64,000 bases of DNA from Chlorobium sp. (lineage in GTDB: Bacteria; Bacteroidota; Chlorobiia; Chlorobiales; Chlorobiaceae). Of the stretch, positions 27,369-40,550 are shown one piece after another. The stretch is from positions 558,001-622,000 of the forward strand of contig SZXV01000002.1 of assembly GCA_005862225.1 (NCBI GenBank). Direction: 5' to 3'. How positions within the stretch are numbered: the stretch's first letter is position 1; each line of letters starts with the position of its first letter. The notes below the pieces were generated by a model. That model was not told the origin of the DNA and made no database searches. It saw nothing but the letters and a program-made list of their open reading frames with translations. A program made the position numbers and the translations under genes.

Positions 27369-30300
27369 TTATTCCTGTCCATAATTTAAGACCGGCGCCA
27401 GCCATTTTTCTGTTTCTTTAATATTTTTTCCTTTACGAGCTGCGTAATCCTCAACCTGGTCTTTTCCAATTTTCCCAAGCATAAAATATTTTGCCAGCGG
27501 GTTTGCGAAATAGAGGCCGCAGACTGATGCTGCCGGGTTCATAGCGAATGATTCCGTGAGTGTGATGCCGGTATTTTTTTCAGCATTGAGCAAGTCGAAA
27601 AGCTCCACTTTTTCGGTATGATCCGGGCAGGCGGGATAGCCTGCTGCCGGGCGGATGCCTTGATACTTTTCAGCAATGAGATCAGCAATATCCAACGGCT
27701 GGCCTGCGGAGATTTCCGGATGGCATGCGCATTTCTTGTCGTGCTTTTCAATGGGTTCATATCCCCAGAGTTCTCGTCTCACACGCTCATGGAGCATTTC
27801 GGCAAATGCTTCTGCAAGGCGATCGGCAAGAGCCTGCGTCATGATGCGATGGTAGTCATCATGCTCATTGCTGAACTCTTTGAGCACCTTTTCGATGCCG
27901 AGGCCAGCGGTGACGGCGAAGCCACCGATGTAATCATGCACTCCAGATTCGACAGAGGCAATAAAGTCAGCCAAAGCAAGATGAGGCTCACCATCCCCTT
28001 TTTCCTGCTGCTGGCGCAAGGTATGCAGGGTCATGAGCACAGCGGTGCGACTCTCATCGGTATAGACCTCAATATCATCGCCCTTGCTGTTGGCAGGAAA
28101 GATTCCGGCAACACCTTTCAGGCCAAGAAGTTGTTCCTTTTCAATCCGGTCAAGGAGTTTTTTTGCATCGGCCAGAAGTTTTTTTGCTTCTGTGCCGTAC
28201 TTCGCATCATCGAGAATCTGCGGGTAGCGACCGTGCAGCTCCCATGCCATGAAAAATGGTGTCCAGTCGATGTAAGAGCGCAGCTCTTCGACGGTTACAT
28301 TTTCCAGCAGGGTGATGCCCGGTTTCAGCGGTTTGTAGACCGTTGGTGGCAATGAGGCGCGGTTTTTCCGGGCATCAGCCAATGAAAGGTATTTTTTTGA
28401 AGCGCTGTTTGAGGAATGGCTCTCTCTCAATCCTGTTTGCTCCTTTTTGAGAGCTGCGATATATGATGGGCTGAGTGCCGGATTGAGCAGGCTGTTAACC
28501 ACAGGAACGCTCCGGGATGCATCAAGCACCTGGACAACAGCCCCAGAATAGACCGGCGCAATTTTTACGGCGGTGTGCATTCGTGATGTGGTGGCGCCAC
28601 CAATGAGCAAAGGAATTTTCATACCGAGTCGTTCCATTTCGCTGGCGACATGCACCATTTCGTCAAGCGACGGGGTGATGAGGCCACTCAGGCCAAGCAG
28701 ATCAGCCTTTTCGCGCTCAATCGCTTCAAGAATTTTTTCACAGGGCATCATGACGCCGATATCAACCACATCGTAGTTGTTGCAGGCAAGCACAACCGCA
28801 ACAATATTTTTGCCAATGTCGTGCACATCACCTTTCACTGTGGCCAAAAGTACCTTGGCAGCAGCACGGGTGTCCTTGTTTTTCGCCTTCTCTGCTGCAA
28901 TGTAGGGCAGAAGGCAGGCAACGGAACGTTTCATGACACGTGCGCTCTTTACCACCTGAGGGAGGAACATTTTACCGACGGCAAAGAGGTCACCGATGGC
29001 ATTCATCCCATCCATCAGCGGCCCTTCAATGACCTGAAGCGGACTTGGGTAAAGCTGTCGCGCCTCTTCGGTATCCTCTTCGATAAATTCGACAATACCT
29101 TTGATCAATGCGTGGCGCAGCCGCTCTTCAACCGGAGCACTACGCCACTCTGCCGCTTTGGCTTCGATCTTTTCTCCGCCAGTAGCGATGGTCTCGGCAA
29201 AGCTGACAAGCCGTTCCGTAGCGTCAGGGCGACGGTCAAGCAGCACATCCTCAACCCGAACCAGCAATTCCGGTTCAATGTCTTCATAGATGGCGAGCTG
29301 TCCGGCATTGACGATACCCATGTCGAGCCCCGCACGGATGGCGTGGTAGAGAAAGGCGGCGTGCATGGATTCCCTTACCGTTTCATTGCCACGGAAAGAG
29401 AAGGAGACGTTGCTGATACCGCCGGAGACCTTTGCATAAGGGAGGTTTTCCTTGATCCAGCGGACGGACTCAATAAAATCAACTGCGTAGTTATTGTGCT
29501 CTTCGATGCCGGTAGCAACAGTCAACACATTGGGATCAAAAATAATATCTTCAGGAGGAAAACCGACTTCCTGAACAAGAATATCGTAGGCGCGTTTGCA
29601 GATGTCAATGCGGCGCTGATAATTATCGGCCTGTCCCTGTTCGTCAAAAGCCATCACCACGGTGGCAGCGCCGTACTGTAACACTTTACGGGCTCTCTGT
29701 TTGAACAACTCCTCACCCTCCTTGAGGCTTATGGAGTTGACAATGCTTTTGCCCTGCACGCACTGCAGGCCGCTCTCAATAACCGACCATTTCGAGCTGT
29801 CGATCATCACCGGCACGCGGGAGATCTCCGGCTCAGAGGCGATGAGGTTGAGGAACTCCTTCATCACCTTCTCGGAGTCGAGCATCCCCTCATCGACATT
29901 GACATCAATCACCTGTGCGCCACTCTCTACCTGCTGGTGGGCAATGGAGAGCGCTTCATCGTAGTTGCCCTCTTTGATGAGACGGGCAAATTTTTTCGAT
30001 CCGGTTACGTTCGTTCGTTCGCCAATGTTGACGAAGCCTGTTGTGTGGTTGACGAAAAGCGGTTCAAGGCCGGAGAGTTGCAGTTCATGCTTTTTTGCAG
30101 GGCGCTGCCGTGGCGGAAGGTTTTTTACCGCTTCAGCAATTGCCTTGATATGCTGTGGAGTAGTGCCGCAGCATCCTCCAACAATATTGACAAATCCTGA
30201 TGTCGCAAAATCGGCAATCTGTGCGGCCATATATTCCGGGGAGTCGTCATATTCGCCAAATTCGTTTGGCAGTCCAGCATTCGGATAGACGCTCACGTAA

Positions 30301-31094
30301 CTTTCAGCAATGCCCGCCATTGCAGCAATGAAGGGGCGCATCTGCTTGGAGCCAAGCGCACAGTTCAGGCCGATAGAGAGAAGATCAGGCAGATGGGCAA
30401 TAGATGTCCAGAATGCTTCGGTGGTCTGACCGGAAAGGGTACGCCCGCTTGCATCGACTACCGTGCCGGAGACCATCACCGGCACACGCCAGCCGGTGCG
30501 ATCGAAAAACTCTTCAATGGCAAAAAGAGCCGCCTTGCAGTTCAGTGTGTCAAAGACCGTTTCGACAAGCAGCAGATCAACTCCGCCCTCCTTAAGCCCT
30601 TCAAGCTGAACAATGTAGTTATCGACCACCTCACGGAAGGTGACGGCGCGATAACCTGGACGGTTGACATCGGGGGAGAGTGAGAGCGTTTTGTTGGTCG
30701 GGCCAATGGAGCCAGCCACAAAGCGTGGTTTGTCAGGAGTTTTTGCAGAATAGTCGTTGGCTGCGCGTCGCGCAAGGCGGGTGGCCTCTATATTCAGCTC
30801 CTTTACCAGCTCTACGGCATTATAGTCCCCCTGGGATATAGGGTTGGCGTTGAAAGTGTTGGTTTCAATAATATCAGAGCCAGCCTCAAGAAAGTCGCAA
30901 TGGAGGGCATAGATAATCTCCGGTTGCGTTAACACAAGCATATCATTGTTTCCAAGAAGCGGATGGGAGTGAGAGGCGAACCGTTCTCCCCGGTAATCCT
31001 CTTCTTTCAATTTATGACGCTGGATCATGGTGCCCATTGCACCGTCGAGCACAAGAATGCGCTCTTCCAGCAGGCTTAAAAAGGTGTTTTTCAT
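27369..31094 (-). CDS. metH: Cobalamin-dependent methionine synthase, full length
   Basis: 1241 residues with all four modules. The homocysteine domain (about 1-330) has [10 protein letters not shown] and zinc ligands in GLNCALG and GGCCGTTP. The pterin domain (about 350-610) has [16 protein letters not shown]. The cap and B12 domain (about 640-890) has [15 protein letters not shown] with the cobalt-ligand His near 757. The AdoMet reactivation domain (about 920-1200) ends with [17 protein letters not shown]. It methylates homocysteine from methyltetrahydrofolate. No B12 or SAM riboswitch is apparent in the 150 bases upstream. A fragment of a second copy is at 26296-26349. Confidence 0.97.
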
Positions 31095-31248
31095 TCGTTA
31101 AAGCATGGCAGTGATTAAAAAAAACAGAATATACGGATAACGCCGGCAAATACGTTCCTTCAGGCAGCGCTCATCATCTGTTTTTATGCTTCAATGAGTA
31201 GAAGCGGAAGGTTTTTTTTGAGCGGTTTGTGAATGGTCCTGTGCCGTG

Positions 31249-31593
31249 TTAAAAGGATGAAGGCCCTCCAAATGTTTTATTGTAATCACGAATAGTGTCG
31301 GCTTCTCTTTCGATGTACTCTGCGATGACCTTGTTAAAAAGATCGTTGAAGCTTCGGCGTTTCATGTGAGCGATTTTTGTAAAGTCTTCAAAAACAGATG
31401 GTTGTATGACTAAATTGACGCGTTTGGTTTTATGTTCAGCCGGATTTTCTTTATGTGTATATGGAGTGTTTCCTGTATATCCCGTATTCGATGTTCTTGA
31501 TGTATGTTGTGTATGAGATGTATCTCTTTCGGATTGAGCACTACTGATAAATGCCGTGGCCGGATTGAAGTCCTTGAAGGTTTTCTTTGCCAT
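31249..31593 (-). CDS. Ribbon-helix-helix partition partner (ParG/omega-like) with a Thr-repeat tail
   Basis: 114 residues. Residues 1-22 are ordinary, residues 23-46 are eight exact Xaa-Xaa-Thr triplets (RDT SHT QHT SRT SNT GYT GNT PYT), and residues 57-100 form the DNA-binding ribbon-helix-helix: KRVNLVIQPSVFEDFTKIAH then RRSFNDLFNKVIAEYIE. The layout (mobile N-terminal tail plus C-terminal RHH dimer) is that of ParG/omega partners of plasmid ParA proteins, whose tails stimulate the ATPase. It sits two bases behind parA. The triplets are encoded by a 9-bp DNA repeat also found upstream of parA. Partition role is inferred from context. Confidence 0.78.
   Translation of the reverse strand: MAKKTFKDFNPATAFISSAQSERDTSHTQHTSRTSNTGYTGNTPYTHKENPAEHKTKRVNLVIQPSVFEDFTKIAHMKRRSFNDLFNKVIAEYIEREADTIRDYNKTFGGPSSF
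31456..31527. repeat. Iteron array 1: eight 9-bp units inside the RHH coding sequence
   Basis: Forward-strand units in register, no spacers: tgtatatgg, agtgtttcc, tgtatatcc, cgtattcga, tgttcttga, tgtatgttg, tgtatgaga, tgtatctct. Consensus TGTATNNNN. The array equals codons 23-46 of the RHH gene and accounts for its Xaa-Xaa-Thr repeat. Likely binding sites of the RHH protein (centromere or operator). Confidence 0.8.
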
Positions 31594-31595
31594 TG

Positions 31596-32360
31596 TTACA
31601 TTCCCCCTTTTGTCACTTGCAGGTATTCAACAATAAAATCCTGATAATCTTTTGCCGGATTGCTGGCAGGTGCGTAACTGTGCAGTGGCTCGCGTCGTGC
31701 CTGTGCTTCCTTGATGGCTATTCCTTCCCTGATCGTGGTCTTGAAAAGTTTAGTGCCCAATTGCTGTGCAGTTGAATCAATAATGTCTGCCAGATCACGG
31801 CTCAGGATAGTGCGGTTGTTAAAGCGGGTAATCAGAATGCCTTCAACTTTCAGATCGGAGTTGCAGTACTCTTTGACGGCACTGATGGTGCTATAGAGCT
31901 GTGTGATTCCATGGATGCTGTACGTGTCGGCCTGGACAGGAATGATGACTTCGGTCGCAGCAGTCAGCGCGTTTATGGTCAAGGTTCCGAGAGCTGGCGG
32001 GGTATCGATGATGCAGAAATCGTATTTATTCCGGATGGGCCGCAGTGCCTCTTTGAGGCGGTACTCTTTTCCTGTCTGGGTTATTTCAAGGTCGGCGCCA
32101 GAAAGTTGCGGACTTGCCGGAATAATTGCACCCTGTGCTGTATGCTGTGTTGCCTCTTGTGCTGTTGCCTTTTTGGTCAGCACATCATAGGCGGTTGGTC
32201 TCCCTGCTTCGGCTTCCATCGTTGAGGAGAGGTTTCCTTGTGGATCAACGTCGACAAACAATACCCTGAATCCTTGATGCTGCAACCCCTGACCCAAGGC
32301 ATGGGCTGTGGTGCTTTTGCCTGTTCCTCCCTTTTGCAGGGCGATAGTGATGATGCGCAT
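31596..32360 (-). CDS. ParA-family partition ATPase (plasmid type)
   Basis: 254 residues. The deviant Walker A reads QKGGTGKSTTAHALGQGL, with signature Lys at both ends; LFVDVDPQGNLSS is the A' motif and FCIIDTPPALGTLTINAL the Walker B. No N-terminal helix-turn-helix, so it is of the small ParA (type Ib/delta) class rather than P1/F type. It is followed two bases later by the RHH partner and preceded by two iteron arrays, giving a complete parA-partner-site cassette. Such ATPases move DNA by forming gradients on the nucleoid. Its presence beside metH suggests an integrated plasmid or element segment, or a chromosomally adopted system. Confidence 0.9.
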   Translation of the reverse strand: MRIITIALQKGGTGKSTTAHALGQGLQHQGFRVLFVDVDPQGNLSSTMEAEAGRPTAYDVLTKKATAQEATQHTAQGAIIPASPQLSGADLEITQTGKEYRLKEALRPIRNKYDFCIIDTPPALGTLTINALTAATEVIIPVQADTYSIHGITQLYSTISAVKEYCNSDLKVEGILITRFNNRTILSRDLADIIDSTAQQLGTKLFKTTIREGIAIKEAQARREPLHSYAPASNPAKDYQDFIVEYLQVTKGGM

Positions 32361-32364
32361 AGTG

Positions 32365-32418
32365 TGTGTTTTGTGTGTCCAGTGTATTAAGTGTATATGA
32401 CGTATGCTGTGTATAGCT
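32365..32418. repeat. Iteron array 2: six 9-bp units just upstream of parA
   Basis: Forward-strand units: tgtgttttg, tgtgtccag, tgtattaag, tgtatatga, cgtatgctg, tgtatagct. Same TGTATNNNN consensus and 9-bp period as array 1. It starts five bases before the parA start codon, so RHH binding there would cover the promoter or leader and could autoregulate the operon. Confidence 0.78.
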
Positions 32419-32562
32419 TAGGTTGCAACTGCCCATTCGATTCGTTGCAATAATGGGGTAGTTATTGTATAAATATAGGTAAAGAAGAAGAATAACCATC
32501 AATAATGCGCATTATTTCAAAAGAAAGAGTGGGAGAATTTGATGGCAAAGGATGGGGGTTGT

Positions 32563-32616
32563 GTGATTTGTGTGGTCGGTGTATATGACGTTATTTCTGT
32601 ATAAAGTGTATTCTGT
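32563..32616. repeat. Iteron array 3: six 9-bp units, 144 bp beyond array 2
   Basis: Forward-strand units: tgtgatttg, tgtggtcgg, tgtatatga, cgttatttc, tgtataaag, tgtattctg. Like array 2 it has six units, two TGTG units at the left and a CGT variant after a TGTATATGA unit. Placed between parA and the esterase gene. Confidence 0.75.
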
Positions 32617-32707
32617 TGAGCCAAAAGATTGCACGACCGTAATGGCTCAAACAGACGAAACGAGTCAGGTATTGCTTCTGAAACTGGCAGGAAGCACAAA
32701 TGAGCTG

Positions 32708-33370
32708 TTATTCCAGAGATTCTGGCGCCCTTTTTTCAAGCCAGGAGTGGATCAGTTCAATGCCTTTGTCGGCGATCTGGTGCGCTATCGGATATTCACT
32801 ATAGGTGAGATCATTGACACGCTCTTCCAGCCACTCATTTGCCGCTCGTCCTTTTGCAATCTGGAGGATATCATCATAAATCCCATGGAGTACAAGAAAA
32901 GGAAGTTTTTTTATGCTGTTGTCATCTTTTGGACGCATGTCAGGCAACTGTCCTGAACAGGCAATAACCCCGTGAAGCAACTCTGGTTCACTGAAGGCCG
33001 TCATGTAACTCATCACTGCTCCCTGGCTGAATCCCATCAGAAAAACCTTGTTGCCGGCAGGTTTGTATTCTGCAAGAATATCATGGATAAAGCTGATGAA
33101 TTGCAGGCGAGCCTCCTCTGCTGCAACGTAGTCAACAGCAATGCCGGTTGGAGTAAAACTGAGTGGGAACCAGCCGAACATGCCCAAATCAAGGGTGTGT
33201 GGGGCGCGAACGCTGATGTATCTAAGCCCCCCATGAAGCATCGGCGCAAGCTGAATCAAATCTTTTTCATTGCTGCCATAACCGTGCAACAGCATCATGA
33301 TCGGAGCATTGTCAGGCGCGGCAGGGGCAAGATCAAGAAAGGTGAGAGAAAGATGTCTTCGTTGAAGCAT
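32708..33370 (-). CDS. Carboxylesterase/phospholipase-type alpha/beta hydrolase (YpfH-like)
   Basis: 220 residues. The oxyanion region is MMLLHGYGSNEKDLIQLA, the nucleophile motif VFLMGFSQGAVMSYM (GFSQG), the acid in VLHGIYDD and the His in YPIAHQI near the C terminus. This is the carboxylesterase/lysophospholipase family of about 200-220 residues; the true substrate is not predictable. It lies 15 bases behind mnmA on the same strand, so probably shares its message. Confidence 0.87.
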   Translation of the reverse strand: MLQRRHLSLTFLDLAPAAPDNAPIMMLLHGYGSNEKDLIQLAPMLHGGLRYISVRAPHTLDLGMFGWFPLSFTPTGIAVDYVAAEEARLQFISFIHDILAEYKPAGNKVFLMGFSQGAVMSYMTAFSEPELLHGVIACSGQLPDMRPKDDNSIKKLPFLVLHGIYDDILQIAKGRAANEWLEERVNDLTYSEYPIAHQIADKGIELIHSWLEKRAPESLE

Positions 33371-38834: not shown

Positions 38835-39632
38835 ATGGGCAGAGTTATTGCGATTGCAAACCAGAAGGGTGGGGTTGGAAAAACAACCACTTCTGTCAAT
38901 ATAGCGGCCTCTATTGCTATTTCTGAGTTCAGGACATTGCTTATAGATATTGATCCCCAGGCCAATGCCACCTCCGGTTTTGGTCTCGAAATCGGAGATG
39001 AGATTGATAATACTTTTTACCAGGTGATGGTAAAAGGCGGGAACATACAGGATGCCATCAAATCCTCCAGTCTGGAGTATCTTGATGTTCTTCCATCCAA
39101 CGTCAATCTTGTCGGGATGGAGGTCGAGCTGGTCAATATGCGGGAACGCGAGTATGTGATGCAGAAAGCGCTCAAGGGTATTCGCGATCTTTACGATTAC
39201 ATCATTATCGATTGTCCGCCCTCGCTCGGGCTGATCACCCTTAATTCACTGACTGCGGCAGATTCCGTGCTTATTCCCGTTCAGGCGGAATATTATGCGC
39301 TTGAAGGTCTGGGAAAACTGCTGAACACCATCAGTATCGTCCGCAAGCATCTCAATCCAAAACTGGAAATCGAAGGGGTTCTGGTGACCATGTACGATGC
39401 GCGGCTTCGTCTTGCATCGCAGGTTGCCGAAGAGGTTAAAAAGTTTTTCAAGGACAAGGTGTACAAGACCTATATCCGCAGGAATGTAAGGTTGTCGGAG
39501 GCGCCCAGTCACGGAAAACCGGCGTTGCTGTACGATGCCCAGTGTATTGGATCGAAAGACTATCTTGACCTGGCTCAGGAGATTTTTGAGAGGGATGGCA
39601 ATATTAAAAAATTTACGGTACGGCAGCCATAG
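38835..39632 (+). CDS. parA: Chromosome-partitioning ATPase ParA (Soj)
   Basis: 265 residues. It opens [20 protein letters not shown] (deviant Walker A), with [18 protein letters not shown] as the A' motif and [18 protein letters not shown] as Walker B, and [19 protein letters not shown] near the end, a block typical of chromosomal Soj. With ParB it segregates the origin region and regulates DnaA in well-studied bacteria. 24 bases separate it from parB. Confidence 0.95.
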
Positions 39633-39656
39633 CTGACCGGTAAGCTGATGGGTGAT

Positions 39657-40550
39657 ATGTCTAAAAACGCATTGGGAAGAGGCCTGAAAGCACTTATTCC
39701 TGATCAAGGTTTTGTCTCTGTTACGCAACAGGATGAGGCACTGGAACTCTCCCGGGATGGGGGGATTGGCACGTTGCCTGTTGCCAAAATACATGCAAAC
39801 CCGTTTCAGCCACGCAAGGAGTTTGATGAAACCGCCCTTGAAGAGTTGAAAAACTCGATTGTTGAAAACGGGGTTATTCAGCCGGTTACCGTGTGCAGGG
39901 ATGGCGAAGGCTATCAGCTCATCAGTGGAGAACGTCGGCTTCGGGCAGTGACGCTGGCCGGTTTCAAGTTTATTCCAGCCTATATTATTGAGGCGCATGA
40001 CGATTCGACCAAGCTTGAGCTTGCTCTTATTGAGAATATTCAGCGTGAAGATCTCAATGCCATTGAGGTTGCGCTTGCCCTCAAAAGCCTGACGACCAAG
40101 TGCAATCTGTCGCAGGAGGAGATAGCACAGAAGGTGGGCAAAAACCGCTCGACCGTCAGCAATTTCCTTCGCCTTCTCAAGCTGCCGCTTCAGATTCAGG
40201 ACAGTATCAGAAACCGGGAGATCTCTTCAGGACATGCACGTGCGCTTATTAATCTCCCCAGTGAACAGCAGCAGGTGAAGGTATGGAAGCAGATTCTCGG
40301 CAATCAGCTTTCGGTTCGTCAGACGGAGGCGCTGGTGAACCGCATGTTCAAGGATCAGTCGTCAAAACCTGTGCGACCAGCCTCTTCGGAACGCTCTTCG
40401 CACCTTGTCGAGCTTGAGTCTGTGTTGAGGAATAATCTTGCGACCAAGGTCCGTATTGTTGAAAAAAAAGAGGGCAAAGGTGAGATACATATCCAGTATT
40501 TCTCACACGATGATCTTGACAGGCTTCTTGAAATCATGCGTCGCGACTGA
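39657..40550 (+). CDS. parB: Chromosome-partitioning protein ParB (Spo0J)
   Basis: 297 residues from the ATG at 39657 (MSKNALGRGLKALIPD); an ATG three codons earlier is equally possible. The N-terminal CTPase domain has IHANPFQPRKEFDE and the GERR box in YQLISGERRLRAVTLAGF, then LALIENIQREDLNAIE. The helix-turn-helix is NLSQEEIAQKVGKNRSTVSN, followed by ISSGHARALINL and a C-terminal dimerisation region. It loads at parS sites and slides as a CTP-bound clamp. I did not find a consensus parS 16-mer by eye nearby. Confidence 0.95.
   Translation: MSKNALGRGLKALIPDQGFVSVTQQDEALELSRDGGIGTLPVAKIHANPFQPRKEFDETALEELKNSIVENGVIQPVTVCRDGEGYQLISGERRLRAVTLAGFKFIPAYIIEAHDDSTKLELALIENIQREDLNAIEVALALKSLTTKCNLSQEEIAQKVGKNRSTVSNFLRLLKLPLQIQDSIRNREISSGHARALINLPSEQQQVKVWKQILGNQLSVRQTEALVNRMFKDQSSKPVRPASSERSSHLVELESVLRNNLATKVRIVEKKEGKGEIHIQYFSHDDLDRLLEIMRRD

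Follow-up and report, generated by a model that had tools for sequence, protein, structure and literature searches.

Organization of the par cassette and its chromosomal site

The window, which is the whole 64-kb stretch of Chlorobium DNA analyzed here, holds a compact par cassette on the minus strand (approximately 31120-32690), between an esterase gene (32708-33370) and metH (27369-31094). The first gene, parA (31596-32360, minus strand), encodes a 254-aa Walker-type ParA ATPase, based on its match to Pfam AAA_31 (E=1.5e-51). The second, rhh, is an open reading frame that begins 2 bp downstream of parA (31249-31593, minus strand) and encodes a 114-aa product that we annotate as ParB-like, of type Ib. 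Arrays of 9-bp units accompany both genes, two of them upstream of parA and one inside rhh.

ParA is of the deviant Walker type, with KGGTGKST at the N terminus and AAA_31 covering residues 1-172, and has no N-terminal DNA-binding domain. Its top NCBIfam match is ParA_partition, with a score below that family's cut-off, and its plasmid relatives are at most 58% identical to it.

The rhh product is predicted to have an N-terminal motif (KKxF..NPAxAFIS), a disordered linker, and a C-terminal RHH-like core. All family members tested (11/11) matched a PHROG Arc-like repressor, with a best E of 4.8e-6, while hits to ParG were weak (E 0.059). A sequence search of the PDB with the protein gave no significant match, and a Pfam search gave nothing above cut-off. 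The AlphaFold model has a mean pLDDT of 61.7, with low values for the N terminus and linker (below 50 for residues 16-50); this low-confidence model places helices at residues 65-75, 79-96, and 98-108, and a Foldseek search with it found no significant fold (best E 3.9). The identity of the product as an RHH protein, which is based on weak profile matches and on its place beside parA, is thus assigned with moderate confidence. The initial annotation of this DNA had described the segment carrying the repeats as a mobile tail, in agreement with the disorder predicted here.

The NPAxxFIS-type motif at the N terminus is kept in 13/13 listed ParA-linked homologues, which include plasmid forms from Lawsonia, Moraxella, Arsenophonus, Streptococcus, Megamonas, and Lactococcus, and is absent from 7/7 orphan relatives that lack ParA. 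Because the motif is present in ParA-linked forms and missing from the orphans, it probably contacts ParA.

The window cassette is chromosomal and has no replication gene. The gap between the esterase gene and metH is 1,613 bp in the window's genome (G000), with the cassette inside, and about 75 bp in G077, where the MetH segment is 95% identical. The cassettes of two further genomes, G055 and G056, are inserted at the same place as that of G000. In a more distant relative (G054; parA dS of about 1.0 versus G000), the cassette lies on a plasmid-like 15.9-kb contig (contig 80, L063:1-15889) with RepA_C, KfrA_N, a resolvase, and a Schlafen AlbA_2 protein. Given the insertion between the esterase gene and metH and the G054 copy on a plasmid-like contig, the cassette looks like a plasmid par module that moved to the chromosome. 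Chromosomal copies of parA have a dN/dS of 0.041, indicating strong purifying selection, which argues that the chromosomal cassette still does something.

The cassette is not linked to the origin. It sits at 589 kb of contig C4, and dnaA and canonical parS (C4:91932) at 92-101 kb; perfect or near-perfect parS palindromes and dnaA are thus about 490-500 kb away (C4:91932, 93836, and 100995). We considered whether the cassette could be the chromosomal ParABS system (Soj-Spo0J-parS, with an HTH/CTPase ParB and palindromic parS) and rejected this identity, as that pair forms a separate locus. The canonical chromosomal parA/soj and parB/spo0J genes are at 38835-40550, about 6.5 kb from the cassette, with parS and dnaA far away.

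Three arrays share one 9-bp motif

The in-gene array (31456-31527, minus strand) consists of eight contiguous 9-bp units with the core ATACA on the coding strand. In order on that strand, the units are AGAGATACA, TCTCATACA, CAACATACA, TCAAGAACA, TCGAATACG, GGATATACA, GGAAACACT, and CCATATACA. They correspond to codons 23-46 of rhh and are read as (Xaa-Xaa-Thr)8, in order RDT, SHT, QHT, SRT, SNT, GYT, GNT, and PYT. The coordinates and frame given in the initial annotation are exact, and all of the units (8/8) encode the Xaa-Xaa-Thr triplets it described. One correction concerns the sequence of the units: the exact TGTAT core is present in only 5/8, and the other three are degenerate (TGTTC, CGTAT, and AGTGT). 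By comparison with homologues, the array occupies the sole unconserved stretch of rhh, between the conserved N-terminal motif and the RHH domain.

Both of the upstream arrays that had been reported to carry the same units are real. The proximal array (32363-32416, minus strand) has six 9-bp units, the last of them 2 bp upstream of the parA ATG; the distal array (32560-32613, minus strand) also has six, some of them degenerate. Both share a single motif with the in-gene array, in the same orientation.

To score the arrays, we trained a weight matrix on the upstream units of G000 alone and scanned the 64 kb on either strand. The 72 bp of the in-gene array scored 47.5, the top place in the window; the upstream arrays scored 47.4 and 42.9, and the best array-free place scored -6.3. 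A pattern search of the whole 2.5-Mb genome for runs of four units, allowing up to 2 mismatches, found none outside the par locus. Searches for a sigma-70-like promoter near the arrays and for Rfam families in the region found none.

Relatives with and without ParA

The ParA-RHH pair is present in 7/98 Chlorobiia genomes, and a ParA search at E 1e-60 in 394 genomes sampled across the phylum added none to these seven, all of them Chlorobium-type. Related cassettes are found on Lawsonia, Moraxella, and Streptococcus plasmids. The viral contigs searched contained no relative, and phage records contained ParA relatives below 45% identity only.

In three lineages, parA is preceded by two arrays, each with five to six 9-bp units. 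The G054 contig carries the three arrays of the cassette and no others, and its in-gene array is exactly two units shorter than that of G000. The order of the units and their spacers are no more alike between G000 and G054 than when shuffled (p 0.58), while core and phase persist. The 9-bp period is thus kept as residues change, a pattern that the initial annotation had named as informative, and this conservation with turnover points to a constraint on the DNA.

The next ParA-linked clade, made up of G039 (two copies), G044, and G076, has ParA proteins about 69% identical and some upstream sites, and no in-gene array was found in these genomes. As the array is absent at 69% ParA identity, it appears to be dispensable for the family, an addition rather than the core of the system. 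The earlier statement that centromere and binder form a single piece of DNA was therefore too strong: two of the arrays are upstream and noncoding, and the 69% relatives do without the one in the gene.

The best upstream sites of this clade are oriented oppositely to those of the window clade (L061:9325-9360, L062:10925-10960, and L059:10411-10446). Its cassettes (L059, L060, L061, and L062) adjoin the same two genes, apparently encoding ATP-citrate lyase subunits, with two different genes on the other flank. This gene neighborhood suggests that these cassettes have a chromosomal home of their own, and an older one.

In a second genus, seven genomes have an RHH relative beside metK or close to it and no matching ParA. 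These orphan genes include L051:5625-6092, L053:7121-7588, L057:7254-7721, L054:10026-10490, and L052:8594-9121. Where the DNA was read, the orphan loci have one or two short groups of 9-bp-spaced sites upstream, and several have Thr-triplet tails. Testing codon choice in the tails with a matrix from the other genus gave a significant signal in G002, G010, and G016 (p 3e-4 to 3e-3, uncorrected for about 15 tests), a borderline one in G004, and none in G003.

These loci bear on the possibility that an RHH-bound in-gene array serves autoregulation alone, as a roadblock or repression loop, and that the chromosomal locus has ceased to work in partition. In its favor, the binding proteins of type Ib systems have flexible N termini, bind upstream iterons, and act as repressors (PMC5016525); the ParA-less orphans with upstream arrays sit beside metK; and the window cassette lacks a replication gene and lies about 490 kb away from both dnaA and parS. 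The plasmid-borne G054 relative carries the same three arrays, however, and the purifying selection on chromosomal parA indicates that ParA is still used for something. On balance, we regard a purely regulatory role as rather unlikely.

Evidence for selection on the array at the DNA level

With the codon usage of neighboring genes and the upstream-only matrix, 0/100,000 synonymous recodings of the array peptide reached the observed score. A second test, with a leave-one-genome-out matrix built from the other genomes and the par locus's own codon usage, gave p values of 2e-5 (G000), 2e-4 (G056), and 1.4e-3 (G054). ACA enrichment is weak by itself (Fisher p 0.03-0.05), and the pairwise comparison of silent sites at the Thr codons of the array involves few sites and is not decisive by itself.

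The residues show the same pattern. Across G000 and G054, residue 2 of the triplet is D, H, N, or Y, encoded by NAY codons, in 13/14 units, against a background of 14.5% (binomial 1.5e-10; 1.1e-5 even if such residues make up 35% of the linker). Residue 1 is one of these four in 1/14 units, so this position is free. The peptide is, on this reading of the sequences, marked by the DNA core in the form of D/H/N/Y before each Thr.

Could a Thr-rich flexible linker have been selected as such, with the DNA repeats arising as a by-product of triplet expansion? Every third residue is Thr in each of the three related loci, the metK-linked orphans also have triplet Thr tails, and the orphan in G003 keeps its Thr triplets although its codon signal is not significant. 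The fit of codon choice to the upstream motif nevertheless goes beyond what the peptide specifies, the restriction of residue 2 to NAY-coded D/H/N/Y joins residues without a shared chemistry, and ParA-linked relatives manage without a Thr repeat. We thus find a purely protein-level origin distinctly improbable. Still less probable, to the point of being very unlikely, is that an upstream array was recently duplicated into rhh and has no function. The motif is common to the three arrays within each genome, as a duplication would produce, but the in-gene spacers align with those of the upstream arrays no better than shuffled unit orders do (p 0.12-1.0, within each genome), so that the alignment test for shared ancestry gave no significant in-register similarity between in-gene and upstream arrays of one genome. 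Moreover, at a dS of about 1 the spacers have turned over and the in-gene array is still present.

The persistence of array core, phase, and D/H/N/Y-Thr despite turnover of spacers and residues points to selection on the DNA as well as on the protein. Selection on the DNA thus seems to have shaped one segment of the protein, the RHH linker. The earlier proposal that DNA site function shaped the tail is borne out as far as a DNA-level signal goes, through the recoding tests and the period kept in homologues.

Proposed function of the in-gene array

We consider it likely, based on the sequence comparisons above, that the chromosomal locus is a type Ib-like ParA-RHH cassette of plasmid origin, whose RHH protein binds three clusters of 9-bp iterons, the third within its own gene. 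The in-gene array is thus most likely a third cluster of sites to which the RHH protein binds. RHH dimers would bind the ATACA iterons cooperatively at all three clusters, with the two upstream clusters acting as operator and centromere. The additional cluster in the gene would probably load more RHH dimers onto the segrosome and could pair with the upstream arrays, at a distance of about 0.85-1.1 kb, or form loops with them. It may also be a roadblock to transcription through rhh, tuning rhh expression. For the in-gene array, then, we infer binding, a role in partition, looping, and repression from its sequence and arrangement.

Iterons could build up in the linker-coding stretch if, as it seems, this is the sole part of rhh without sequence-specific constraint on the protein. 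Units of 9 bp stay in a single reading frame, and in the one used here the core ATACA is translated as (D/H/N/Y)-Thr. More tentatively, the linker may be an overlapping code in which selection on the iterons dictates the residues and the linker drifts with DNA specificity, and the metK orphans with self-encoded sites may be stand-alone regulators; we hold this extension to be possible, though doubtful. If the overlapping code is true, the protein records the history of its own binding site.

The locus would be a natural case in which DNA repeats bound by a protein share their bases with a disordered protein region, and in which the constraint on the DNA can be read from the residues, with D, H, N, or Y preceding each Thr. 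Because homologues differ in whether they have the in-gene array and in whether they have ParA, the family offers a tractable way to ask whether centromere sites within genes contribute to segregation or to regulation only. The cassette is also tractable for the question of how plasmid par modules become domesticated on chromosomes.

Comparison with known systems

The closest likeness is to type Ib systems (TP228 ParFGH, pSM19035 delta-omega, and pCXC100 ParAB), in which parA is followed by a small gene whose product has a flexible N terminus and an RHH-type C terminus, and iteron arrays lie upstream of the operon, as they do here. The pCXC100 centromere consists of direct repeats only (PMC5016525). 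The cassette differs from these in having a further contiguous array inside the binding-protein gene, which writes a peptide repeat, and in being a chromosomal copy without replication genes. Direct repeats in pCXC100 are reportedly 9-nt units. The closest plasmid ParA (58%) is that of the Lawsonia intracellularis plasmid ParA-RHH operon, which likewise has 9-bp-spaced sites upstream of parA; its in-gene stretch is weak and does not exceed synonymous chance (p 0.26). In pSM19035, one RHH protein, omega, has three separate multi-iteron sites (PMC5016525), resembling the binding predicted here, but those sites are described as overlapping promoters rather than lying in the coding sequence of the binder.

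Sites within genes also have precedents. Iterons inside the rep genes of plasmid origins are known. In B. subtilis, a parS site is a single palindrome, recognized by a CTP-dependent ParB of the HTH type. One such site, parS-359, is within the parB (spo0J) gene (PMC4442127), and so shares with our array the location of a centromere site in the gene of its own binding protein, but has no iteron array or peptide repeat. The ParB of pMF1, from the type Ib parCAB system of Myxococcus, binds iterons upstream, downstream, and inside ORFs, as determined by EMSA (PMC3235114). That system differs in its 8-bp-like motif, its three-gene operon, and the placement of the iterons in other ORFs; an in-frame array in the binding-protein gene is not described for it.

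Among open-license papers, we found no described case of a contiguous RHH iteron array writing a peptide repeat in the linker of its own binder. The initial annotation knew of no described partition system with such a layout; among these papers, this holds for the self-written linker but not for intragenic sites, given parS-359 (PMC4442127) and pMF1 (PMC3235114). Intragenic sites for a binding protein are not new in themselves, and in light of these two precedents, the in-gene array of the Chlorobium cassette is a variation on a known theme rather than a wholly new type of system.
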